From Aliarcobacter sp. (GTDB taxonomy: Bacteria > Campylobacterota > Campylobacteria > Campylobacterales > Arcobacteraceae): DNA of 64,000 nt. This document shows, piece after piece, positions 14,425 to 35,119 of this stretch (position 1 is its first letter; each line of letters opens with the position of its first letter). The stretch lies in assembly GCA_028690445.1 (NCBI GenBank), contig JAQVBE010000011.1, positions 28,143 to 92,142 on the forward strand, in the 5' to 3' direction. The notes under the pieces were generated by a model, which had not been told where the DNA came from, searched no databases, and saw only the letters and a list, made by a program, of their open reading frames with translations. The position numbers and the translations under genes were made by a program.

Positions 14425-14453
14425 TTGACATTGATAAAAAAATGTTCTATAAT
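14425..14453 (+). promoter_or_regulatory. Consensus sigma-70 promoter for the metY-cys operon
   Basis: TTGACA (14425-14430), a 17-base spacer and TATAAT (14448-14453): both hexamers are perfect. The -10 ends 43 bases before the metY ATG. The ORF track's TTG start for metY is the first three bases of this -35 box, which shows that start is false. Upstream (14388-14403) lies the short inverted repeat ACCCT-n-AGGGT, and 14360-14381 holds AGATT/AATCT arms; either could be a regulator site but neither is strong. Confidence 0.85.
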
Positions 14454-14496
14454 TTCAACATATAAAGAAAATAACAAAAAAAATGAAAGGGAAAAA

Positions 14497-15765
14497 ATGC
14501 AAAACGAAACTATAGCAATACATGCAGGTTATAACAAAAAAGAAGGTTATGGAACAATGAGCGTTCCAATTTCTCAAACAACTGCTTATGCATTTAGAGA
14601 TTCTGAACATGCGGCAAATTTATTTGCCCTAAAAGAATTAGGTCCAATCTATACTAGATTAAATAACCCAACAACTGATGTTTTAGAACAAAGATTTGCA
14701 GCCCTTGAAGGTGGAGCAGCTGCTATTTGTACATCTTCTGGACAAGCAGCATCATTTTATGCAATTGCAAATGTAGCTGAAGCGGGAGATAATATTCTTA
14801 TTTCTGATAAATTATACGGTGGAAGCGTTACTTTATTAACTTACACTATGAAAAGATTTGGAATTACAGCAAAAGTATTTAAAAGTGATGATGCTTCTGA
14901 TTTAGAAAGTTTAATTGATAATAGAACAAAAGCTATTTATTTTGAATCATTATCAAACCCTCAAATTGCAATTCCTGATGTGGAAAAAATTGCAACTATT
15001 GGGAAAAAACATGGTGTTTTAACTATTTGTGATAATACAGTTGCAAGTGCTGCTTTATTTAATCCAATTAAATGGGGAATTGATGTTGTAGTTCATTCAA
15101 CTTCAAAATACACAAATGGTCAAGGAACTGCAATTGGTGGTATTGTAGTAGAAAGAGACGGATTAGCTGAATTCTTTAAAGCTAACTCAAATAGATATTC
15201 ACACTTTACAACTCCTGATGAGTCATATCATGGATTAGTTTATACGGATGTTCCTCTTCCAAATTTTTGTTTAAGAATTAGATTATCACTTTTAAGAGAT
15301 ATTGGAGCAGTTCCAGCACCTTTTAATTCATGGTTATTAATTCAAACATTAGAAACATTAAGTTTAAGAGTTGATAAACACTCTGATAATGCTTTAGTAG
15401 TTGCAAAATTCCTAGAGTCACATCCAAAAGTAAAAGCTGTAAATTATCCAGGATTAGAGTCAAATAAATATTATGATAGAGCTCAAAAATATTTCAAAGG
15501 TGGAAAATCATCAGGACTTATCTCTTTTGATGTTGAATCATTTGAAGAAGCAAAAAGAGTAATTGATAGTGCAAAACTATTTAGTGTAGTTGTAAATATT
15601 GGAGATAGTAAATCACTTATTGTTCATCCAGCATCTACAACTCACTCACAAATGAGTCCTGAAGATTTAGTAAAAGCTGGTGTAAATCCTGTAACGATTA
15701 GACTTTCTATTGGTTTAGAAAACACAATTGATCTTATTGAAGATTTAAACCAAGCACTGAATTAA
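14497..15765 (+). CDS. metY: O-acetylhomoserine sulfhydrylase (PLP enzyme)
   Basis: 422 residues from ATG 14497, preceded by GAAAGGGA; the upstream 24 codons in the track overlie the promoter. Belongs to the Cys/Met-metabolism PLP family: 'IHAGYNKKEGYGTMSVPISQTTAY' at the N-terminus, 'PIYTRLNNPTTDVLE', the PLP lysine in 'VHSTSKYTNGQG' and 'IVHPASTTHSQM' near the end, all typical of OAH sulfhydrylases (MetY/Cys3 group) rather than cystathionine synthases. It makes homocysteine from O-acetylhomoserine and sulfide, the product of the reductive genes downstream. First gene of the operon and 4 bases before the Rrf2 regulator. Confidence 0.92.
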   Translation: MQNETIAIHAGYNKKEGYGTMSVPISQTTAYAFRDSEHAANLFALKELGPIYTRLNNPTTDVLEQRFAALEGGAAAICTSSGQAASFYAIANVAEAGDNILISDKLYGGSVTLLTYTMKRFGITAKVFKSDDASDLESLIDNRTKAIYFESLSNPQIAIPDVEKIATIGKKHGVLTICDNTVASAALFNPIKWGIDVVVHSTSKYTNGQGTAIGGIVVERDGLAEFFKANSNRYSHFTTPDESYHGLVYTDVPLPNFCLRIRLSLLRDIGAVPAPFNSWLLIQTLETLSLRVDKHSDNALVVAKFLESHPKVKAVNYPGLESNKYYDRAQKYFKGGKSSGLISFDVESFEEAKRVIDSAKLFSVVVNIGDSKSLIVHPASTTHSQMSPEDLVKAGVNPVTIRLSIGLENTIDLIEDLNQALN

Positions 15766-15769
15766 GAAA

Positions 15770-16183
15770 ATGCCATTAATATCAACAAAAGGTGTATACG
15801 GATTAACTGCCATGTATGAGTTAAGTAAGCATCAAGCAGATACTCCAATGCAAATCAAGGATATATCTGCAAATGCTAATATCCCTCAAAATTACTTAGA
15901 ACAACTTTTAAGTAAATTAAGAAGAGCAGACCTTGTAAAAAGTATACGAGGTGCAAGGGGAGGATATGTACTTGCTAGAAGTGCTAAGGAGATTAAGATA
16001 GTTGATATTCTAATCGCTTTAGAAGATGATATTAAGATAATTGACACAAAAGCTGAAAATCCAATCTTGAATATCTTTTTTGATGAATCAAAAAATAGTA
16101 TGAAAAAAATCTTTGATGTTTCTCTAGACAAGTTAGATGAATATCAAGAAAAATACAATAAATTTTTACATTACAACATATAA
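15770..16183 (+). CDS. Rrf2-family transcriptional regulator, CymR-like (no Fe-S cysteines)
   Basis: 137 residues. The winged helix-turn-helix is clear: 'STKGVYGLTAMYELSKH', 'ISANANIPQNYLEQLLSKLRRADLVKSIRGARGGYVLAR'. The C-terminal part lacks the three cysteines that hold the Fe-S cluster in IscR/NsrR/RirA, as in the cysteine-metabolism repressor CymR of Firmicutes. It lies between metY and cysK in one tight run (4 and 11 bases). CymR is known to work with CysK as cysteine sensor, so the adjacency to cysK is suggestive; a role as operon repressor is inferred. Confidence 0.88.
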   Translation: MPLISTKGVYGLTAMYELSKHQADTPMQIKDISANANIPQNYLEQLLSKLRRADLVKSIRGARGGYVLARSAKEIKIVDILIALEDDIKIIDTKAENPILNIFFDESKNSMKKIFDVSLDKLDEYQEKYNKFLHYNI

Positions 16184-16194
16184 AGGAAAACAAA

Positions 16195-17127
16195 ATGAAA
16201 TATGCAAATAACATAACAGAATTAATCGGTAACACACCTTTAGTAAAATTACAAGGTGCAAGTAATACAAGTGGAGCAACAGTTTTAGGTAAATGTGAAT
16301 TTATGAATCCATCACATTCTGTAAAAGATAGAATTGGTACAAACATGATAAATGCAGCTTTAAAAGCTGGATTAATTAAAGAAGGTACAACTGTAATTGA
16401 ACCAACAAGTGGAAATACAGGAATTGCCTTAGCTTCTGTTTGTGCAGCTTTAGGAATTAAATTAGTTCTTACAATGCCTTCATCAATGAGTATTGAAAGA
16501 AGAAGATTATTAAAAGCTTTAGGAGCTGAATTAGTATTAACTGCACCTGAAAAAGGAATGAAAGGTGCTATTGAAAAAGCTGTTGAATTACAAGAAGCAA
16601 CTCCAAATTCTTTTATTCCTCAACAATTTGCAAATGCAGCAAACCCAGAAATTCACAGACTTACAACTGCAAAAGAGATTTTAGCAGATACAGATGGAAA
16701 AATTGATATTTTTGTAGCTGCTATTGGAACAGGTGGAACAATTACAGGAACGGGTGAAGTTTTAAAAGCTCACAATCCAAATATTCAAATTATTGCAGTT
16801 GAGCCAGATGCATCACCTGTTTTAAGTGGTGGAAAACCAGGACCTCATAAAATCCAAGGAATTGGAGCTGGGTTTGTACCAGATGTTTTAAATACAAAAG
16901 TTTACAATGAAGTTATTCAAGTATCAAATGATGATGCAATTGCAACTTCAAGAAAAATCGCTCAAAAAGAAGGATTATTAGTTGGTATTTCTGCTGGTGC
17001 GAATATTTATGCTGCAGAATTAATCGCATCAAGACCTGAAAATAAAGGTAAAACTGTTGTTACAATTTTATGTGACACAGGTGAGAGATATCTAAGTTCT
17101 GGTTTATATGATTATGATGAAGAGTAA
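16195..17127 (+). CDS. cysK: Cysteine synthase A (O-acetylserine sulfhydrylase)
   Basis: 310 residues. PLP lysine in 'NPSHSVKDRIG', substrate loop 'EPTSGNTGIALA', phosphate-binding 'GTGGTITGTGEVL', and C-terminal 'CDTGERYLSSGLYDYDEE'. Makes L-cysteine from O-acetylserine and sulfide in the cytoplasm. AAAGGAAA upstream serves as ribosome site. It follows the Rrf2 gene by 11 bases and precedes the DUF2061 gene by 43. The 'GKCEFMNPSHSVKDR' form is typical of CysK; a CysM or cystathionine-synthase role is less likely. Confidence 0.95.
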   Translation: MKYANNITELIGNTPLVKLQGASNTSGATVLGKCEFMNPSHSVKDRIGTNMINAALKAGLIKEGTTVIEPTSGNTGIALASVCAALGIKLVLTMPSSMSIERRRLLKALGAELVLTAPEKGMKGAIEKAVELQEATPNSFIPQQFANAANPEIHRLTTAKEILADTDGKIDIFVAAIGTGGTITGTGEVLKAHNPNIQIIAVEPDASPVLSGGKPGPHKIQGIGAGFVPDVLNTKVYNEVIQVSNDDAIATSRKIAQKEGLLVGISAGANIYAAELIASRPENKGKTVVTILCDTGERYLSSGLYDYDEE

Positions 17128-17170
17128 GAACTCTTTATCGTAATTGCTTTAATTAATTATAGGAAAACAA

Positions 17171-17401
17171 ATGCACGAAAAACCGTATAGATCGGTTGTA
17201 AAAGCCATATCATGGCGAACAGTCGGAACAATTGACACAATGATTGTTTCTTATTTTATTACTGGAAATTTAATTATGGCAGCTTCAATTGGTTCAATTG
17301 AAGTAGTTACAAAAATGGCTTTATACTATTTTCACGAAAGAGCTTGGAATAAGTTATCTTTTGGAAAAGTAAAACCACCAGAAACTGATTATCAAATTTA
17401 G
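17171..17401 (+). CDS. DUF2061 small membrane protein
   Basis: 76 residues. The core 'RSVVKAISWRTVGTIDTMIVSYFITGNL' plus 'ASIGSIEVVTKMALYYFHERAWNKL' is the DUF2061 signature, with about two membrane segments. These proteins are often encoded next to cysD/cysN/cysH or fused to them, and their function is unknown. Here it lies between cysK and cysH, 8 bases from the latter, so it is part of the sulfate-assimilation transcript. Confidence 0.9.
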   Translation: MHEKPYRSVVKAISWRTVGTIDTMIVSYFITGNLIMAASIGSIEVVTKMALYYFHERAWNKLSFGKVKPPETDYQI

Positions 17402-17409
17402 GTTATAAA

Positions 17410-18114
17410 ATGAGTAATAAAGAATTAATACAAAATATAAATAAGGAGTTAGAAAATAAATCTACACAGGAAGTGATAGAGTATTTTTTAACAAAATTCG
17501 GAAATGTAGCACTAAGCTCAAGCTTAGCAGCAGAAGACCAAGTTTTGACAGATGTTATTTTAAAACAAAATAAGAATGCAACAATATTTACATTGGATAC
17601 AGGAAGATTACACCCTGAAACTTATGATGTTATGGATGCAACAAATTTAAAATATGGTGTAAAAATTGATGTATTTTTCCCAAACAGTCAAGAAGTACAA
17701 GAGTTATATCAAACTCAAGGTGTAAATGGTCACTATGAAAGTATAAACAACAGAAAAAACTGCTGTAATATTAGAAAAATTGAACCTTTAAAAAGAGCTT
17801 TAAAAGATGTTGAAGTTTGGATTACAGGACTAAGAGCTGCTCAAAGTATTACAAGAGTTGATATGCCTTTAGTTGAGTGGGATGAAAACTTCAAAGTAAT
17901 AAAAGTAAATCCTTTGATTAACTGGAGTGAAGAAAATGTGTGGGATTATATAAAAGAAAATAAAGTTCCTTATAATAAACTTCACGATAAGGGCTTTCCA
18001 AGTATTGGATGCGCTCCTTGTACACGAGCTATCAAAGATGGTGAAGATATAAGAGCTGGAAGATGGTGGTGGGAAAACCCTGAACACAAAGAGTGTGGTT
18101 TACACAAGAAATAA
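17410..18114 (+). CDS. cysH: Phosphoadenylyl/adenylyl-sulfate reductase, APS-reductase type with [4Fe-4S] cysteines
   Basis: 234 residues. Nucleotide-binding '[16 protein letters not shown]' near residue 40, '[16 protein letters not shown]', then the cluster cysteines '[11 protein letters not shown]' and '[10 protein letters not shown]', and the catalytic tail 'ECGLHKK'. The CC...CxxC set marks the assimilatory APS reductase group that reduces APS directly to sulfite; E. coli-type PAPS reductases lack it. Consistently, there is no APS kinase (cysC) in the operon and CysN carries no CysC fusion. The stop codon overlaps the region of the cysD starts. Confidence 0.93.
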
Positions 18115-18128
18115 TGGAGAATACTAAA

Positions 18129-19040
18129 ATGATAAGTACAGAAAGATTAACTCATTTAAAACAGCTTGAAGCTGAATCAATTCATATTATTAGAGAAGTT
18201 GTTGCTGAATTTGGCAATCCTGTAATGATGTATTCAGTTGGTAAAGACTCAGCGGTTATGTTACATCTTGCATTAAAAGCTTTTGCACCTGCAAAGTTAC
18301 CATTTCCACTTTTACATGTGGATACTTTATGGAAATTTAAAGAGATGATTGCATTTAGAGACCAAAGAGCAAAAGAAGAAGGTTTTGAACTTTTAGTTCA
18401 TACAAATCCAGAAGGTATTGCAAATAATGTAGGACCATTTACTCATGGGAGCGCTGTTCATACAGACATTATGAAAACACAAGGTTTAAAACAAGCATTA
18501 AACAAGTATAAATTTGATGCTGTTTTTGGTGGTGCTAGACGTGATGAAGAGAAAAGTAGAGCAAAAGAGAGAATCTACTCTTTTAGAGATAAAAATCATA
18601 GATGGGATCCAAAAAATCAAAGACCAGAACTTTGGAATGTTTACAATGGTAGAGTTCATAAAGGTGAATCTATAAGAGTTTTCCCTATTTCAAACTGGAC
18701 AGAACTAGATGTTTGGCAATATATTTATCTTGAAGGTATTCCAATCGTTCCTTTATATTTTGCTGCAAAAAGACCAGTTGTTGAAAAAGATGGTGTTAAA
18801 ATCATGGTTGATGATGAAAGAATGCCAATAGGTCCTGATGATGTTATAAAAGAAGAGATGGTAAGATTTAGAACTCTTGGATGTTATCCACTAACAGGAG
18901 CAGTTGATTCAACAGCAACAACACTACCTGAAATTATTCAAGAGATGTTATTAACAAAAACAAGCGAAAGACAAGGAAGAGTTATTGATAATGACTCAGC
19001 TGGTTCAATGGAAAAGAAAAAAATAGAGGGGTACTTTTAG
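18129..19040 (+). CDS. cysD: Sulfate adenylyltransferase subunit 2
   Basis: 303 residues from ATG 18129, chosen because GGAG lies 9 bases upstream and the product then matches the usual CysD length and start ('[20 protein letters not shown]'). The track start 18093 is inside cysH, and ATG 18114 overlaps its stop codon without a ribosome site. The PP-loop ATP-binding motif is '[14 protein letters not shown]'; '[14 protein letters not shown]' is also family-typical. With CysN it forms ATP sulfurylase and makes APS from sulfate and ATP. One base from cysN. Confidence 0.94.
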
Positions 19041-19041
19041 G

Positions 19042-20451
19042 ATGTCAAATTTAGAAACAAAAATAGCTAACGATATAGAGGCGTACTTAAAAGAGCATGA
19101 GAATAAACAACTATTAAGATTTATTACTTGTGGAAGTGTTGATGATGGAAAATCTACGTTAATTGGAAGACTATTACACGATTCAAAAATGATTTTTGAA
19201 GACCAATTAGCTGCTATTAAAAATGATAGTAAAAAAGCTGGAACGACTGAGGGTGAGTTTGACTTAGCTTTATTAGTTGATGGTTTACAATCGGAGAGAG
19301 AACAAGGTATTACGATTGATGTTGCTTATAGATATTTTACAACTGATAAAAGAAAATTTATCATTGCAGATACTCCAGGGCATGAACAATATACTAGAAA
19401 TATGGCAACAGGAGCAAGTACTGCTGACTTAGCAATTATTTTAATTGATGCTAGATATGGTGTTCAAACACAAACAAGACGACATTCATTTATCGCAAAA
19501 TTACTTGGGATTCATCATATCGTAGTTGCTGTTAATAAGATGGATTTAGTTGATTTTAGTGAAGATAGATACAATGAAATTTGTGCTTCTTATTTGGAAT
19601 TTGCAAAAGAATTAGGAATGACAGAAGATATTACGTTAATTCCATTATCTGCACTAAATGGGGACAATGTTGTAAATGTAAGCCCTAAATCACCTTGGTA
19701 CAAAGGTGATACTTTAATGCATGTTTTAGAAACTATTAAAATTGATGAAGATAGAGATTTAGTTCACTTTAGACTTCCTGTTCAATATGTAAATAGACCA
19801 AATCTAAACTTTAGAGGGTTTTGTGGAACAATTGCAAGTGGAATTATCAAAGTTGGTGATCCAATCACTGTTTTACCATCAGGAAAAAGCTCAACTGTAA
19901 AAGAAATCGTAACTTACGATGGAAATTTAGAATATGCTTATGCACAACAAGCAATTACACTTACTTTAAATGATGAAATAGATATTTCAAGAGGTGACAC
20001 AATTGTAAAAAGTGATGAGCAACCAGATCATGCGTGTGCATTAGATGTTGATATTGTATGGATGAGTGAAGAACCTCTTATAAAAGGTAAACAATATTTT
20101 ATAAAAAGAGCAACAACTCAAACAGTTGGAACTATTGATAAATTCTATTATAAAACAGATGTAAACACTTTAGAGCAAAGTGAAGCAAATGTTTTAAATC
20201 TAAATGAGATTGCACATGCAAAATTAGATTTAGAACAAAATATCGCTTTTGATGCTTATGATAAAAATAAAGTTATGGGAAGTTTTATCATTATTGATAG
20301 AATTACAAATAACACAGTTGGTGCTGGAATGATTAGAAATAAATCAATTGACCAAAGCAAAAAGGATACTCAATATTCAGAATTTGAAATTGAATTTAAC
20401 GCTCTTGTGAGAAAACATTTCCCTCATTGGGAAGCTAAAGAAATTTTTTAA
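19042..20451 (+). CDS. cysN: Sulfate adenylyltransferase subunit 1 (GTPase)
   Basis: 469 residues. EF-Tu-like GTPase: P-loop '[18 protein letters not shown]', G3 '[12 protein letters not shown]', G4 'NKMDLVDF', then two beta-barrel domains. It couples GTP hydrolysis to APS synthesis by CysD. The length shows that no C-terminal APS kinase domain is fused, in line with an APS-type CysH. It starts directly after cysD and stops 8 bases before the NiR/SiR-like gene. Confidence 0.95.
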
Positions 20452-20459
20452 GAAATTTT

Positions 20460-21548
20460 ATGTCACAAAACCTAAACTTAGAAAATATTAAAAAAGAAAA
20501 GGATGGAATAGATGTCTTAGCTGACATCTTTTTTCATGCTGTTTTTGGCGAATTAGTAACTCCTGCCGATTTAGAAAGATTCAAATGGTATGGGGTTTAT
20601 GCACAAGATGAAAAACAAGAATATTTTAAATTAAGAGTTCCTTTATCTTTAGGAGAATTAAATTTAAATCAACTAAAAACACTCAGTTTAATCTCAAAGA
20701 AATTTGGCGATGATACTTTGATTTTTTCAAATGAACAAAAAGTAGAGTTTAAAAATCTAAAAATTTATGACTTACCTAATATCTTTAATCTTCTTTTAGA
20801 AGCAAAATTAAATACACATTTTGAAGCAGGTCATACAATAAGAAGAGTTCTTACCTGTCCAGTAAATGGGATAGATGATACACAATTAGTTGATGTTGAA
20901 CCGCTTGCAAATAAATTAAATGATACTTTTATTGGAAATAAGAATTTCTCAAACTTACCAAATAAACTTCAAATTGCAATAAGTGGTTATGAAGAGGGAT
21001 GTAATGTTCAGTTTATTCCTGATATTAGTTTTAATGCAACAAAAGATGTAAAAAATAAAATTATTTTTGCTATAAAAATTTTGGATAAAACTATTGGTTA
21101 TATAACTCCTGCACAAGTTGTAAAAACAGCAATTGCCCTTGCAAATATTTACAAAGATTTTGGGGATAGAACAAATCCACAGAATAGCTCTTTTGAATTT
21201 TTAGTAAATAATTGGGGAATAAATAAATTTTTTGATATTTTAAACTCAACAGTAAATTATAAAATAGAAAAAAATAAAACTATCCAAGAACAAACCATTC
21301 CTAAAAAACCAAGAATGGGAATAAACAAAAGTAAAATTAAAAAACAAAGTTACATAGGTTGTAAAATTACTTCTTCAACCATACAAAGTTCAAATTTAGA
21401 TAATTTATCATCTTTACTTGAAAAATATAGTGCTTCAAAAATTAAAATTACCCATAAAGGAAATATCATAATTTTAGATGCACTATCAAATAGTGCAAAT
21501 GATTTAGCTATTGAACTTGAGAAAATAGACTTTAATCCTTTTGTATAA
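20460..21548 (+). CDS. Short nitrite/sulfite reductase-like protein lacking the Fe-S/siroheme cysteines
   Basis: 362 residues, compared with ~550 for full NiR/SiR proteins. Residues ~15-90 ('ADLERFKWYGVYAQDEK...YFKLRVPLSLGELNLNQLKTL') and the C-terminal ~285-360 look like the two ferredoxin-like half-domains of the family. The middle has 'RRVLTCPVNGIDDTQLVDVEPLANKLN', the first catalytic-fold segment. The C-x5-C and C-x3-C cluster motifs of the second catalytic segment are absent; only three cysteines occur in the whole protein. No leftover reading frame follows before dgt, so it is a compact form and not an obvious frameshift. Position at the end of the sulfate operon implies a role in sulfite reduction or siroheme handling, but catalysis alone looks doubtful. 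Confidence 0.8.
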   Translation: MSQNLNLENIKKEKDGIDVLADIFFHAVFGELVTPADLERFKWYGVYAQDEKQEYFKLRVPLSLGELNLNQLKTLSLISKKFGDDTLIFSNEQKVEFKNLKIYDLPNIFNLLLEAKLNTHFEAGHTIRRVLTCPVNGIDDTQLVDVEPLANKLNDTFIGNKNFSNLPNKLQIAISGYEEGCNVQFIPDISFNATKDVKNKIIFAIKILDKTIGYITPAQVVKTAIALANIYKDFGDRTNPQNSSFEFLVNNWGINKFFDILNSTVNYKIEKNKTIQEQTIPKKPRMGINKSKIKKQSYIGCKITSSTIQSSNLDNLSSLLEKYSASKIKITHKGNIIILDALSNSANDLAIELEKIDFNPFV

Positions 21549-29240: not shown

Positions 29241-30266
29241 TCAAATCCCTGCTCCATCTTGGAATGTTCTTAATTCTCTTGGAATTATTCCAATAATATC
29301 ACCTTTATTAAGGTTTTTATTTTTAAATTCATGATGTGATATTTCAACTAAAATCGTTTTTGTATTATCTTCTATATCTTCTAAATCAATTTTAACTTGA
29401 GAACCTGCTAATTGTATATATTTAATTTTAGCTTTTGAAATAATATCTTTATCTTCACTTGAAACTATTTCTAACTCATGTGGACGAATATGATATTTTT
29501 GTTCTGAATCATTTTTTCGTTCATGAAATAGATTTACATTTCCTAAAAAGTTGATTACAAACTCATTTGCAGGATTATGAAATACCTCTTCAGGTGTTCC
29601 TATTTGCTCTATTTTTCCCTTTGAAATTACTACAATTCTATCAGCAACTTCAAGTGCTTCTTCTTGGTCATGAGTTACTAAAATAGTTGTAATTCCTAAT
29701 TCTGCTTGAAGCTCTTTTAACCATTTTCTCAAATCTGCTCGAACCTTTGCATCTAATGCACCAAAAGGTTCATCTAAAAGTAATACTTTTGGCTCAACTG
29801 CTAAAGCCCGTGCTAATGCAACTCTTTGTCGCTGACCACCTGAGAGTTGCCAAGGAAATCTGTTTGCAAAACCATCAAGTTGAATAAGTTCTAAAAGTTT
29901 TGTAACTTTTTTATTGATTTGTTCATTTGATAATCGCTCTTTTTTGGGTTTTACTCTTAATCCAAAAGCAATATTTTCAAAAACAGTCATATGTTTAAAA
30001 AGTGCGTAATGTTGGAATACAAATCCAATATCTCTTTCACCTATATTTTTTTTTGCAACATCTATTTTATTAAATAAAATCTCACCACTATCAATATCTT
30101 CAACTGTTTCAAGACCTGCTATCATTCTTAAAAGTGTAGTTTTCCCACTTCCTGATGGTCCTAAAAGTGCCAACAGTTCACCTGGGATTATCTCTAAATT
30201 TATATTTTTAAGAGCAACAAAGTTACCAAAATTTTTTGTTAAATTTTTTACTTCAATTTTCATCAT
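29241..30266 (-). CDS. cysA: Sulfate/thiosulfate ABC transporter ATP-binding protein
   Basis: 341 residues. Walker A '[14 protein letters not shown]', signature '[16 protein letters not shown]', Walker B '[12 protein letters not shown]', His switch '[11 protein letters not shown]', then a C-terminal regulatory TOBE-like part. The family '[28 protein letters not shown]' is typical of CysA. It energises sulfate import through CysT/CysW. Last gene of the sulfate operon, 16 bases after cysW. Confidence 0.95.
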
Positions 30267-30282: not shown

Positions 30283-31140
30283 TTATTGCTTTTCTAATTT
30301 GTATAATTCTCTTTGTACTTTCCATTCTAAAATATATTTTAGAACCAAAGTTAAAAGAGCAAGTATTGCCAAAAGAGTTGAAACAGCAAAGGCTGCTACA
30401 AAGTTATATTCGTTATATAAAATTTCAACTTGTAAAGGTATCGTGTTTGTTACACCTTGGATATGTCCAGAAACAACTGAAACTGCCCCAAACTCTCCCA
30501 TTGCTCTTGCATTACATAAAATTACTCCATAAATGAGTCCCCATTTTATATTTGGCAAGGTTACTTTCCAAAATGTTTGAAAACCTGTTGCTCCAAGTAA
30601 AAGTGCAGCTTGTTCTTCATCATTTCCTTGTTCTTGCATAAGAGGAATTAATTCTCTAGCAACAAAAGGAAAAGTTACAAATATAGTCGCTAATACAATT
30701 CCAGGAACTGCAAAAATTATTTGTACATCATTTGCAATTAACCAATGTCCAAACCAACCTTGCGCCCCAAAAAGTAAAACATAAACAAATCCCGAAATAA
30801 CTGGACTTACAGCAAAAGGTAAATCAATCAAAGTTATCAAAAAACTTTTTCCAAAAAACGAATATTTAGCAATTGCCCAAGAAGCTGCAACTCCAAAAAC
30901 TAAATTTAAAGGAACTGCAATTGCAGCTGTTATAAATGTAAGTTTTATTGCTTGTAAAACATATTCATTTGTAAATGATTCAAAATATGCTTCGTAACCT
31001 TTTCTAAAAGCTTCTGCAAAAATTGTAATCAAAGGAGCAACTAACATAATCAACAAAAATGCAACCGCAGATCCAATTAATATATATTTAACTAATCTTG
31101 ATTCACCTTGAGATGATTTTGAATTACTAATAGTTTTCAT
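30283..31140 (-). CDS. cysW: Sulfate ABC transporter permease CysW
   Basis: 285 residues from ATG 31140, which has GGAGG a few bases upstream and forms an ATGA overlap with the cysT stop; the track start is 11 codons earlier, inside cysT. Six membrane segments with the permease EAA loop 'LLGATGFQTFWKVTLPNIKWGLIYG', and the sulfate-specific 'RAMGEFGAVSVVSGHI'. Inner-membrane half of the sulfate channel, paired with CysT. Confidence 0.94.
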   Translation of the reverse strand: MKTISNSKSSQGESRLVKYILIGSAVAFLLIMLVAPLITIFAEAFRKGYEAYFESFTNEYVLQAIKLTFITAAIAVPLNLVFGVAASWAIAKYSFFGKSFLITLIDLPFAVSPVISGFVYVLLFGAQGWFGHWLIANDVQIIFAVPGIVLATIFVTFPFVARELIPLMQEQGNDEEQAALLLGATGFQTFWKVTLPNIKWGLIYGVILCNARAMGEFGAVSVVSGHIQGVTNTIPLQVEILYNEYNFVAAFAVSTLLAILALLTLVLKYILEWKVQRELYKLEKQ

Positions 31141-31991
31141 ATTGCCTCCATACCTTTTCTTCTTGAGCTCCATCTTTGAAGCATATTAATTAATAACAAC
31201 ATTACAAATGAAATCAAAAGCATCACAACTGCAATTGTAGTTGCGCCTGCATAATCATATTGTTCAAGTTTTGTAATAATCAAAAGTATACTAATCTCTG
31301 TTTTCATTGGCATATTTCCAGCAATAAAAACAACCGAACCATATTCACCAAGAGCTCTTGCAAATGACAAAGCAAAACCTGTCAAAACAGATGGAAAAAT
31401 AGTAGGAAGAATCACTTTATAAAATATTTGCCATCGTGTAGCTCCCAAACTTGCCCCTGCTTCTTCTTGTTCTATTTGAATCTCTTCAAGAGCTGGTTGA
31501 ATTGTTCGAACTACAAAAGGAAGTCCTATAAAAATCAGAGCTATAGTAATTCCTATTGGTGTAAAAACTACTTTTATTCCAAGTGGTTCTAAGTATTGTC
31601 CAAACCAACCTTGAGTCGAATACAAAGTCGTAAGTGCAATTCCTGAAACTGCCGTGGGCAGCGCAAAAGGCAAATCAACAATCGCATCAAAAATTCTTTT
31701 TCCAAAAAATGTATATCTTACTAAACACCAAGCAACAATCAAACCAAAAACAGTATTTACAAGAGCTGCAATTAATGAAGTTAAAAAAGTAAGCTTATAA
31801 CTTGCAATTACCCTATCACTTGTTGTTGCATTTATAAATGCTTGCCATCCCATACTAAAAGCTTCAGAGAATAGCGCAATTAGAGGAATTATAACTATGA
31901 TACTTAGATAAAAAATCGTATATCCCATAGTTAATCCAAAACCTGGAATTGGTGATTTTTGCCTTTTTAATATTCCAAAATTTAGTCTCAT
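31137..31991 (-). CDS. cysT: Sulfate ABC transporter permease CysT (CysU)
   Basis: 284 residues. Six membrane segments; EAA loop 'EAGASLGATRWQIFYKVILPTIFPSVLTG', 'ARALGEYGSVVFIAGNMP' and the N-terminal 'LKRQKSPIPGFGLTMGYTIFYLSIIVIIPL' are all typical of CysT. AGGAG precedes its ATG. It starts 1 base after the EAL-protein stop, so translation is probably coupled, and overlaps cysW by 4 bases. Confidence 0.94.
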   Translation of the reverse strand: MRLNFGILKRQKSPIPGFGLTMGYTIFYLSIIVIIPLIALFSEAFSMGWQAFINATTSDRVIASYKLTFLTSLIAALVNTVFGLIVAWCLVRYTFFGKRIFDAIVDLPFALPTAVSGIALTTLYSTQGWFGQYLEPLGIKVVFTPIGITIALIFIGLPFVVRTIQPALEEIQIEQEEAGASLGATRWQIFYKVILPTIFPSVLTGFALSFARALGEYGSVVFIAGNMPMKTEISILLIITKLEQYDYAGATTIAVVMLLISFVMLLLINMLQRWSSRRKGMEAI

Positions 31992-31992
31992 T

Positions 31993-33219
31993 TTAAAATT
32001 TCTCCTTTTTTAAATCTTTTACATTTTTTGGTTCATCAAACCAATATCCTTGAAAATAATCAATTTCTAAATTTTTACAAGTTTCATAAATTTCTTTGGA
32101 AGAAACAAACTCTGCAACAGTTTTTATTCCTACTTTTTTAGCAAAAAAAACTATCGCTTCAACTACTGCTTTTGCTGATTTAGTTTTGTTTATATCTTGA
32201 ATAATAGAGCCATCAAGTTTTATAAAATCTGCTTGTAACTTAACTAAATATGAAAAATTCGAATATCCCGTTCCAAAATCATCAATGGCAATTTTTACTC
32301 CAAGATTTTTTACAACTTTGATAAATGAGATTACCTCTTCAATATTATCAATACCTTCACTCTCTGTTATCTCTATAGTTAGGAAATATCCTATGTCAAA
32401 CTCATAAACTTTTTGAATTAAAAAATCAACAACATCTTTTTCTAAAATGTCACTTATTGATAAATTAATACTAAATTCAATATTTTTATTTTCAAAAAAT
32501 TCAAAAGATTTTTGTATTATTTTTTTTGTAATTTCACTATATAAATTTATTTTTTTTGCCCTATTAATGAAAAAATATGGACTTATAATTTCATCTTTTG
32601 AGTTTTTCATACGAACTAATATTTCATATTTTTTTTCGAACTGATTGCTTATACTTTGAGCAAAAATTTCAAATTTATCCCGTTTAATTGCTTGAATAAT
32701 TTGGGCTTCCCAATATAAATCTTGCTCAATTGATAAAGAGTTTGGATGACAAAAATGTTGTTGTTCTCCATCATAAATAACTAGATTATGTTTTATAACC
32801 CTTGTTTGTTTTAAAGCAAATTCTGCACTAAATAAAAGTTCAGGATAATTTAACGCAACACCAACTCGTAAAGGAATATAAACTCTAAAACCATCTAATT
32901 CAATAGGCGAATAACCAAAATACCAAATAATCGATTTGATTGTTTGTATAAATTTATCTTTTGAAATATCTTCACTTGAAGCAGACGCAAAAATATCTGC
33001 TCCTAGATAATAAATTTTGCTATTTAAAAATTTATTCTCCAATCTTAAAGAGATAACTTTTAATACCTTTTCCCCAAAATCGTACCCATAATAATGATTT
33101 ATATTTCCAAAACCATTAATATCAAAAATAGCTACTTTATTGAATTTATTGTTTTTATTATCTTCTAAAAACTCTTTTCTATTTGGAAGATTAATTTCAT
33201 TTTCTTCATCTATTTTCAT
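31993..33219 (-). CDS. EAL-domain c-di-GMP phosphodiesterase with degenerate GGDEF, inside the sulfate operon
   Basis: 408 residues from ATG 33219 (GGAG upstream at a rather long spacing); the track's TTG start at 33237 overlaps that GGAG, so the start is not certain. Residues ~10-150 are GGDEF-like, but the active site reads 'LGADIF' instead of GGDEF, so cyclase activity is unlikely. The EAL domain (~170-400) keeps the catalytic set: 'YEILVRM', 'FSINLS', 'IEITES', 'IDDFGTG', 'FIKLDG', 'VAEFV', 'QGYWFDEP'. It is probably an active phosphodiesterase, cytoplasmic with no membrane helix. It lies 28 bases after sbp and 1 base before cysT, all in the same direction. Confidence 0.9.
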   Translation of the reverse strand: MKIDEENEINLPNRKEFLEDNKNNKFNKVAIFDINGFGNINHYYGYDFGEKVLKVISLRLENKFLNSKIYYLGADIFASASSEDISKDKFIQTIKSIIWYFGYSPIELDGFRVYIPLRVGVALNYPELLFSAEFALKQTRVIKHNLVIYDGEQQHFCHPNSLSIEQDLYWEAQIIQAIKRDKFEIFAQSISNQFEKKYEILVRMKNSKDEIISPYFFINRAKKINLYSEITKKIIQKSFEFFENKNIEFSINLSISDILEKDVVDFLIQKVYEFDIGYFLTIEITESEGIDNIEEVISFIKVVKNLGVKIAIDDFGTGYSNFSYLVKLQADFIKLDGSIIQDINKTKSAKAVVEAIVFFAKKVGIKTVAEFVSSKEIYETCKNLEIDYFQGYWFDEPKNVKDLKKEKF

Positions 33220-33247
33220 ATTAAATTTAAACTCCAAGAATTTTTAG

Positions 33248-34333
33248 CTATTTATAAATAGCGTCAAATGTTCCACCATCGTCAAAATGTGTTTTTTGTG
33301 CAACTGCCCAACCATCAAACACATCATTGATTTTTACAAGTTCAAGTTTTGGGAATCTTGCTATATCTTCTTTATCTGCAAGTTCTGGTTTATATGGTCT
33401 ATAGTAGTTTTTTGCTGCTAATTTTTGACCTGCTGGTGAATATAAATATTCTAAATATGCTTTTGATACTTCATAAGTTCCGTGTTTTTTTGCATTTTCA
33501 TCAACAACAGCAACAGGAGGTTCAGCAACTATTGATATACTAGGAACAACAATTTCAAATTCATCTTTTCCCAACTCATTAATAGCTAAAAATGCTTCAT
33601 TTTCCCAAGCAAGCAACACATCTCCAATTTTTCTTTGAACAAAAGTATTAGTAGCTCCCCTTGCACCAGAATCAAGAACTGGAACATTTTTGAATAACTT
33701 AGAGATATATTCAAGTGCTTTTTTATCAGCATCTTTATACTTTTGCGAATTTTTATCAACTTTAGTTAAATCACCCAACTCTTTTTTTAAAGCATAAGCA
33801 TAAGCTGCTAAATAGTTCCATCTTGCACCTCCCGAAGTTTTTGGATTTGGAGTAATCACAGAAACTCCATCTTTTATTAAATCATCCCAATCTTTTATGC
33901 CTTTTGGATTTCCTTTTCTAACTAAAAATACAATAGTTGAAGTATATGGCGATGAATTATTTTCTAATTTTGATTGCCAATCTTTTGGAAATAAAGCAGC
34001 TTTTTGGCTTATTACATCTACATCATAACCTAAAGCTAAAGTCACAACATCTGCTCCTAAACCATCAATTACAGCCCTTGCTTGTTTTCCTGAACCACCA
34101 TGGGATTGTTTAATAATTAATGTCTGCCCCGTTTTCTCTTTCCAATAAAATACAAAATCTTTGTTATATGAAGCATATAACTCCCTTGTTGGATCATATG
34201 AAACATTTAAAATCTCTAATGACTTTTTAGAAGCCTCTGCTTTTGAATCATAACTCTCACTTGAAATCCCTAATATTGGTATTAATAATGCGCTTAATAC
34301 AATATTTCTTAAATTTTTTACTATTTTTTTCAT
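33248..34333 (-). CDS. sbp: Periplasmic sulfate-binding protein
   Basis: 361 residues with signal peptide '[27 protein letters not shown]'. Family motifs: '[20 protein letters not shown]', '[28 protein letters not shown]', '[19 protein letters not shown]' and '[15 protein letters not shown]'. This is the SBP/CysP family that delivers sulfate or thiosulfate to the CysTWA complex. First gene of the operon; transcription starts from the consensus promoter at 34511-34539 covered by an Rrf2-type operator. Confidence 0.95.
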
Positions 34334-34488
34334 CTTGTTGTCTCTTTATAATATAATACACACTAAATGAGTGATAATTTAAAGATTTAAAAAAAATCTC
34401 ACCTTCTCTTTTTCCTAATTAATATACTTTTTTACACATACTACTCATCATTCTGGACCTTTTTTGAGTTTTCTTATAGGTTTTAATC

Positions 34489-34539
34489 TATCACCTACTA
34501 AATTGGTGAAATTATAATCACTTTTTTTAACTTTGTCAA
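34489..34539 (-). promoter_or_regulatory. sbp-cysTWA promoter with Rrf2-type operator
   Basis: On the minus strand TTGACA (34534-34539), a 17-base spacer and TATAAT (34511-34516) form a perfect promoter. An operator-like sequence, TCACCTA-n3-AATTG-n-TGAAAT on the plus strand, lies at 34489-34515 over the -10 and start region. It matches 22 of 27 bases with the sequence upstream of the Rrf2 gene at 35069-35095. Binding there would block RNA polymerase. Confidence 0.85.
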
Positions 34540-34603
34540 CCAATTGATAAAAAGTATCTGGATTTTGAACTATTTTTTTAAAACAAAAGATATAGATTAA
34601 GTA

Positions 34604-35065
34604 TTAAATACCTAATCCACCAATAAATTCTTCTTTATAAACATCTTCTTTTGTTATTGGAGTTTGAGCCAAACAAGAGGCAATTGTTGTTCTATCAAGT
34701 ATTTGAGCTGTTAAATTTCTAATATTTAAAAAAATTCTTCTAAAGTGACATTTTTTCTCTTGGCTGCATGATTCATAACTTGAAACCGAAACACATGAAA
34801 TCATTGCTATCATTCCTTCAAAAAATCTAATAACTTCACCTAAAGTAATTTCATCAGATCCTTTTGCCAAAGTATATCCACCATATCTTCCTGGAATACT
34901 TCTAACCCAACCTGCTTTATTCATCTCAAGCATTATATTTTCTAGGAATCTTCTAGGAACATCTGTGGATTCAGAAAGTTCTCGTATAGAAATAGAATTC
35001 TCTTTTATCTCTGCAATTGCAAATAAAGCTCGAAGAGCATAATCTGTTTTTTTTGATATCTTCAT
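34604..35065 (-). CDS. Rrf2-family regulator with three-cysteine (Fe-S type) motif
   Basis: 153 residues from ATG 35065, with AGGTG upstream; the track's GTG start three codons earlier lies inside the operator. The winged HTH reads 'KKTDYALRALFAIAE', 'SIRELSESTDVPRRFLENIMLEMNKAGWVRSIPGRYGGYTLAKG'. The C-terminal half carries C-x8-C-x5-C ('SCVSVSSYESC', 'EKKCHF'), close to the cluster cysteines of IscR, NsrR and RirA. It likely senses Fe-S, sulfur or redox status and represses itself and the adjacent sulfate importer, since both have the same operator. The ligand type is inferred. Confidence 0.88.
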   Translation of the reverse strand: MKISKKTDYALRALFAIAEIKENSISIRELSESTDVPRRFLENIMLEMNKAGWVRSIPGRYGGYTLAKGSDEITLGEVIRFFEGMIAMISCVSVSSYESCSQEKKCHFRRIFLNIRNLTAQILDRTTIASCLAQTPITKEDVYKEEFIGGLGI

Positions 35066-35068
35066 AAT

Positions 35069-35119
35069 TTTCACCTATTTAATTGATGAAATCATATTAG
35101 ATTAATCATTTCATGTCAA
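35069..35119 (-). promoter_or_regulatory. Promoter and operator of the Fe-S-type Rrf2 gene
   Basis: On the minus strand TTGACA (35114-35119), 17 bases, then TATGAT (35091-35096). The operator copy at 35069-35095 begins in the -10 and runs into the ribosome-binding site of the Rrf2 gene. Geometry is the same as in the sbp promoter, which supports autoregulation. Confidence 0.85.

Follow-up and report, generated by a model that had tools for sequence, protein, structure and literature searches.

Two adjacent transcription units on the minus strand of a 64,000-nt stretch of Aliarcobacter sp. DNA (the window), one encoding an Rrf2-family regulator and the other a sulfate-uptake operon headed by sbp, raise the question of whether both are controlled by one regulator, and of what that regulator senses. 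The genes follow one another in the order rrf2, sbp, an EAL-domain gene, cysT, cysW and cysA (Table 1). When both promoters were re-read, TTGACA-17-TAT(A/G)AT was found upstream of sbp and of rrf2, as originally predicted, with a 17-nt spacer in each and 12 of 12 consensus bases at sbp and 11 of 12 at rrf2. The plus-strand pattern TCACCTA-n3-AATTG-n-TGAAAT is likewise correct at both sites, and the shared 27-base sequence is identical at 22 of 27 positions (P(>=22/27) = 5e-8). The 27-base stretch overlaps the -10 box and so counts some positions twice; the independent agreement is therefore that of the promoter-independent 19-bp core, 16 of 19 positions (P(>=16/19) = 1.6e-6). Both P values were computed at window base composition and hold for one pair of places. 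The core is a dyad, TCACC-N9-GGTGA, located 0-1 nt downstream of the -10 box. At rrf2 its right arm AGGTGA (35071-35076) is positioned to serve as the ribosome-binding site too; the start codon of rrf2 is likely the ATG at 35065 and not an upstream GTG.

Table 1. Features of the sbp and rrf2 region and the second rrf2 gene of the window.
Feature	Position	Strand	Remarks
Second Rrf2	15770..16183	+	cysteine-free, CymR-like, in cys-biosynthesis operon
cysA	29241..30266	-	ATPase; TIGR00968
cysW	30283..31140	-	permease; TIGR02140
cysT	31137..31991	-	permease; TIGR02139
EAL-domain protein	31993..33237	-	degenerate GGDEF
sbp	33248..34333	-	sulfate ABC transporter binding protein; NF008022 and TIGR00971 above cut-off
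Conserved leader blocks	34351..34404	-	AGGTGAGATTTTTTT and ATCAC-CATTTAGTGTGTATTATAT, between mini-ORF and sbp
Leader mini-ORF (predicted)	34419..34451	-	MMSSMCKKVY; MMCDMC... in most relatives
5' hairpin of sbp mRNA	34476..34498	-	GUAGGU/ACCUAU, first arm within operator
Predicted operator of sbp	34491..34509	-	19 bp, TCACCAATTTAGTAGGTGA; profile score 56.6 bits
-10 of sbp	34511..34516	-	TATAAT
-35 of sbp	34534..34539	-	TTGACA
rrf2	34604..35065	-	Rrf2-family regulator, 153 aa; D8/C91/C100/C106
Predicted operator of rrf2	35071..35089	-	19 bp, TCATCAATTAAATAGGTGA; profile score 35.8 bits
-10 of rrf2	35091..35096	-	TATGAT
-35 of rrf2	35114..35119	-	TTGACA

In the window the pattern has exactly two matches at three mismatches or fewer, against 0.12 expected, the pattern having been built from these two. 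The whole host genome contains two perfect matches and two with three mismatches. The latter (L003, L004) were rejected as sites, being without such a promoter and not exceeding in number a reversed-pattern control. A profile of promoter plus operator returned the same two clear sites only, at sbp and rrf2, and the next-best matches in this genome (~23.6 bits) agree in the promoter half only. Searching the genome for the motif at other genes thus gave sbp and rrf2 as the only host targets, and the common promoter-operator module at these two genes is confirmed. The weight originally placed on the consensus -35 box as a special feature did not hold up, since promoters with 12 of 12 consensus bases are also present at other host operons. 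A perfect TTGACA-17-TATAAT stands upstream of two tRNA operons (L101, L102), the promoter of the cysteine-biosynthesis (metY-cysK) operon at 14425 likewise has 12 of 12, and promoter matches of 11-12 of 12 are not more frequent in the window (6) than in shuffled sequences (3-11). A consensus -35 box therefore indicates a strong promoter and is no hallmark of this regulon. At both tRNA operons (L101:1665 and L102:1438) the perfect promoter is followed by an identical sequence, TCCAGTCCAATTTAAGTA.

Of the 31 Aliarcobacter genomes compared, 25 encode an ortholog of the regulator (at least 82% identity), a few strays lie elsewhere, and the predicted operator is kept at orthologous rrf2 and sbp promoters throughout the genus. 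The 48 distinct site sequences collected from these promoters have almost invariant arms, with the operator 0-2 nt from the -10 box. On the profile, true sites score 32.8-57.6 bits and the remainder about 28 bits or less, mostly through the promoter half only. Operators with up to three mismatches are present in 24 of the 25 genomes that carry this rrf2 and in none of the six that do not (Fisher p = 1e-5, phylogeny uncorrected). From these six sbp is missing as well; rrf2, sbp and the site have been gained and lost together, so that the co-occurrence shows linkage and is by itself no proof of binding. Several species (G002, G010, G017, G029) have an sbp without a site of its own, whose transcription probably starts at the rrf2 promoter. 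Base 19 of the operator is T only in the five relatives whose DNA-binding helix reads ISTK instead of ISIR, in agreement with this protein as owner of the site, though the two changes may go back to one single event. The case for one shared regulator, drawn originally from the geometry of two promoters, is thus borne out by the conservation of the site at orthologous promoters, by its distribution (24/25 vs 0/6) and by its presence at other sulfur operons.

Some features of individual genomes were also recorded. In G023 (L005, upstream of 1474), whose Rrf2 is identical to that of the window, the -35 region of rrf2 is missing and the operator is retained. The host sbp is 95-96% identical to those of G021 and G029, whereas the rrf2 genes of these two are only 82-83% identical (L052-L056 vs L006, L008, L028, L029); judged from these identities, sbp and rrf2 seem to have differing histories (recombination). 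Copies of the rrf2-sbp-cysTWA module with an operator ending in GGTGT are present in genomes labelled Sulfurospirillum and Sulfurimonas (L085, L087) and in almost no other Campylobacteria; either the cassette was transferred horizontally or the contigs were binned wrongly. The EAL gene of the window (31993-33237) is part of the sulfate operon, with sbp before it and cysT after it; its counterpart in the relative G005 (L032) has its own operator-bearing promoter, a hint that sulfur supply and c-di-GMP may be connected.

Further targets became apparent in the relatives. The site is located upstream of cysTWA where these genes are split from sbp (L035, L037, L039, L042-L044), upstream of the alkanesulfonate genes ssuA/ssuD (L034, L036, L038, L040), upstream of an amino-acid/cystine-type ABC transporter (L038, L040), and upstream of an sbp that heads a larger cluster (L034-L037). 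The genes after this sbp encode CysK, a JAMM peptidase, a CysO/ThiS-like carrier, a ThiF-rhodanese protein, an encapsulin of type 2A and a cysteine-desulfurase-type class V aminotransferase. The encapsulin downstream of the operator-bearing sbp promoter is SrpI-like in several Aliarcobacter (L034, L035, L037); in Synechococcus, sulfate starvation induces SrpI encapsulin with cysteine desulfurase (PMC8049743). Among the sites examined in relatives none precedes Fe-S assembly (isc/suf), iron or NO-detoxification genes, and with the sites found at sulfur-uptake genes the regulon is one of sulfur acquisition. More distantly, six rrf2 genes, of which five belong to Anaerolineae (Chloroflexota) and the sixth to an unassigned bacterium, have a TTGACA-16/17-nAtAAT promoter with a CGA-type dyad directly behind it (e.g., AACGA-N9-TCGTT, AGCGA-N9-TCGCT), which differs in its bases and is the same in architecture. 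A clear matching dyad was not found at three other distant relatives (L090, L091, L092). Relatives of rrf2 in Planctomycetota and Verrucomicrobia are near sbp-cysT genes, and those in Anaerolineae adjoin cysK.

The regulator belongs to the Rrf2 superfamily (TIGR00738, 108.1 bits, cut-off 73.3) and contains the predicted C-x8-C-x5-C motif as Cys91, Cys100 and Cys106. Across 16 sequences, with identities as low as 49%, these three residues and Asp8 never vary, in contrast to Cys131. The winged-helix fold predicted for the protein (mean pLDDT 83, with lower values in the Cys loop) matched CymR best in Foldseek (2y75, 3lwf, also 3t8t), followed by IscR, RsrR and NsrR. None of the named subfamily models for CymR, NsrR, IscR, RirA and the SUF regulator reached its cut-off (76.5 bits against 195 for CymR, 61.7 against 182 for NsrR and 61.8 against 207.6 for IscR), and the neighbours are sbp-cysTWA and not an isc operon. 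With CymR, the repressor of cysteine metabolism in Bacillus and Staphylococcus, the protein has in common the Rrf2 fold and, as read from the sites in relatives, a regulon comprising uptake of sulfur sources and cysteine synthesis. CymR carries no cluster (PMC9338935) and its equivalog family is marked by the absence of cluster-ligand cysteines, whereas the present protein and its relatives keep D8, C91, C100 and C106 throughout. The [4Fe-4S] cluster of NsrR is held by three cysteines and Asp8 of the partner subunit (PMC5411485), and the same four residues are present in the same fold; the present protein differs from NsrR in its sulfur-acquisition regulon, its C-x8-C-x5-C spacing and its score under the cut-off. 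IscR, RirA and the SUF regulator have the fold and a three-Cys motif in common with it, but their curated cut-offs were missed and the examined sites are not at Fe-S assembly or iron genes. From its residues the protein would somewhat more probably than otherwise carry an Fe-S cluster, and the best reading of it is a putative CymR-like sulfur-acquisition repressor on an NsrR/IscR-type scaffold; candidate signals are cluster status, iron, cysteine and redox state. The host genome encodes a third Rrf2 protein (L097:1480-1893, contig C21) with several cysteines in a different spacing.

Taken together, the protein encoded at 34604-35065 very probably represses its own gene and the sbp-EAL-cysTWA operon through the 19-bp dyad, and is released on sulfur shortage. 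Comparative evidence favours this reading, namely the common site, its conservation, its co-occurrence with rrf2 and the sulfur-acquisition regulon in relatives. An Rrf2 dimer would occupy the dyad TCACC-N9-GGTGA 0-1 bp downstream of the -10 box; as the dyad covers the transcription start, placed here from the -10 position, the bound dimer would block RNA polymerase at two strong sigma-70 promoters. The same operator lies over this start at the regulator's own promoter and at those of its targets, as is expected of an autoregulated Rrf2 repressor. When the supply of sulfur falls (cysteine, or the Fe-S clusters made from it), the repressor would let go and uptake would be induced. A bound cluster, if there is one, would be held by Cys91, Cys100 and Cys106 together with Asp8 from the partner subunit, the arrangement found in NsrR. 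Of the original proposal of one repressor acting on both promoters, the single regulator, the autoregulation and the connection with sulfur uptake are upheld; repression itself, as opposed to activation, we infer, together with direct binding and release on sulfur or cluster shortage.

Another candidate for the operator is the second, cysteine-free Rrf2 protein (15770-16183), with the adjacent rrf2 as merely one more of its targets. This protein is encoded in the cysteine-biosynthesis operon, between a metY-like gene and cysK-cysH-cysD-cysN, it is nearer to CymR than the 34604-35065 protein (112.9 vs 76.5 bits, cut-off 195), and operators of Rrf2 proteins can be alike. It is, however, present in 31 of 31 genomes of the genus, including six without any operator, and so does not track the site. 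The dyad is absent from the promoter of its own operon, which has a different conserved sequence, while the site is autoregulatory at the other rrf2, and distant orthologs of that gene show the same architecture. By occurrence and promoter the 34604 protein is the better owner of the site, and control by the second Rrf2 is improbable. The sulfate-assimilation operon at 14425-21548 (metY-like, the CymR-like Rrf2, cysK, cysH, cysD, cysN and a nitrite/sulfite-reductase-like gene) has its perfect promoter at 14425 followed by a conserved TYCAACATA, and probably forms a regulon of its own under the cysteine-free Rrf2. A regulator of NsrR or IscR type, sensing NO or iron/Fe-S status instead of cysteine and controlling sulfur genes since Fe-S clusters require sulfur, is rather unlikely, though less so than the second Rrf2: Asp8 and the three cysteines are as in NsrR (PMC5411485) and the Foldseek matches include IscR, RsrR and NsrR, but the scores of the protein fall well short of the cut-offs for NsrR, IscR, RirA and the SUF regulator, and the sites examined in relatives are at sulfur-acquisition genes only. 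Cluster sensing as such is compatible with repression by the 34604 protein on sulfur sufficiency, which allows it. A recent duplication of promoter DNA, without any common regulator, could also leave two adjacent genes with the same -35 box, spacing, -10 box and 19 bp; this is very improbable, as among the 48 distinct site sequences spacers and flanks vary while the operator arms are kept, and unlinked operons carry the site as well.

Conservation of the sbp leader extends for ~150 nt past the operator, and ssuA leaders carry the same element. The right half of the operator pairs with a downstream complement as the 5' hairpin of the mRNA, and one pair of this hairpin is compensated (G-C, G-U and A-U in 8, 3 and 5 leaders). 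In sbp and ssuA leaders the hairpin precedes the mini-ORF and competing pairings; the arm is also present in nine cysT leaders, where it gives a stem of roughly 10-12 pairs ahead of a U-run, as in an intrinsic terminator. Most of the 28 leaders with a ribosome site encode MMCDMC, which is common to sbp and ssuA leaders with tails of varying sequence and length. Five of these six first residues are Met or Cys, as expected of an attenuator for sulfur amino acids. Among 104 family genomes, 21 contain the core sequence of the mini-ORF, with 25 occurrences in all, and their positions are those of sbp or ssuA leaders. Cys codons have been lost in some species (MMSSMC in the host; MMYDMC; MMCPMN), and synonymous and non-synonymous changes are seen alike, so that the mini-ORF may be kept either for its peptide or for RNA pairing. 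For the sbp/ssuA leaders RNAalifold gave only a weak consensus, in which the mini-ORF pairs with the distal block (-5.1 kcal/mol); we therefore commit to no one structure. An Rfam search with the sbp leader returned no convincing RNA family. Predicted cysteine leader peptides have been described in actinobacterial cys operons (PMC1262725), also as short ORFs with Cys codons ahead of sulfur genes; there the Cys run is near the stop, whereas MMCDMC is at the N terminus in Aliarcobacter and is combined with an Rrf2 operator and hairpins that reuse half of it.

The mini-ORF and the operator-derived hairpin suggest repression plus a possible attenuation, and regulation by the leader has about even odds. 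As a second layer, the right half of the operator would become the mRNA hairpin arm, and translation of the Met/Cys-rich mini-ORF of sbp and ssuA leaders could report the supply of sulfur amino acids. It is just as probable that mini-ORF and hairpins are non-regulatory, the block being an untranslated spacer or a secondary promoter, and that Rrf2 alone controls sbp. The loss of one Cys codon in some species and the weak consensus fold agree with a non-regulatory leader; the retention of MMCDMC in sbp and ssuA leaders despite differing tails and lengths, its restriction to these leaders among 104 genomes, the compensatory changes in the hairpin arms, and the stem and U-run of cysT leaders argue against it. 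The fuller scheme, in which one DNA stretch would have two jobs, as Rrf2 operator and as mRNA hairpin arm, and sulfur uptake in Aliarcobacter would come under double control, from an Fe-S-type Rrf2 on the DNA and from the progress of the ribosome over Cys/Met codons of the nascent RNA, is put forward tentatively, at somewhat less than even chance.

A search of the open literature found neither an Rrf2 regulator of sbp/cysTWA nor a description of the control of sulfur assimilation in Campylobacterota; a concrete regulator, operator and regulon are thus now given for Aliarcobacter. The original prediction is mostly right on the regulon; added here are a second, cysteine-free CymR-like Rrf2 and a conserved RNA leader, which contains a predicted mini-ORF rich in sulfur amino acids. 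If the regulator carries a cluster, a CymR-type regulon would be joined to an NsrR/IscR-type sensor and sulfur uptake would be tied to Fe-S status. The sulfur-rich leader is a testable second layer, in which one sequence would act as both operator and RNA hairpin.
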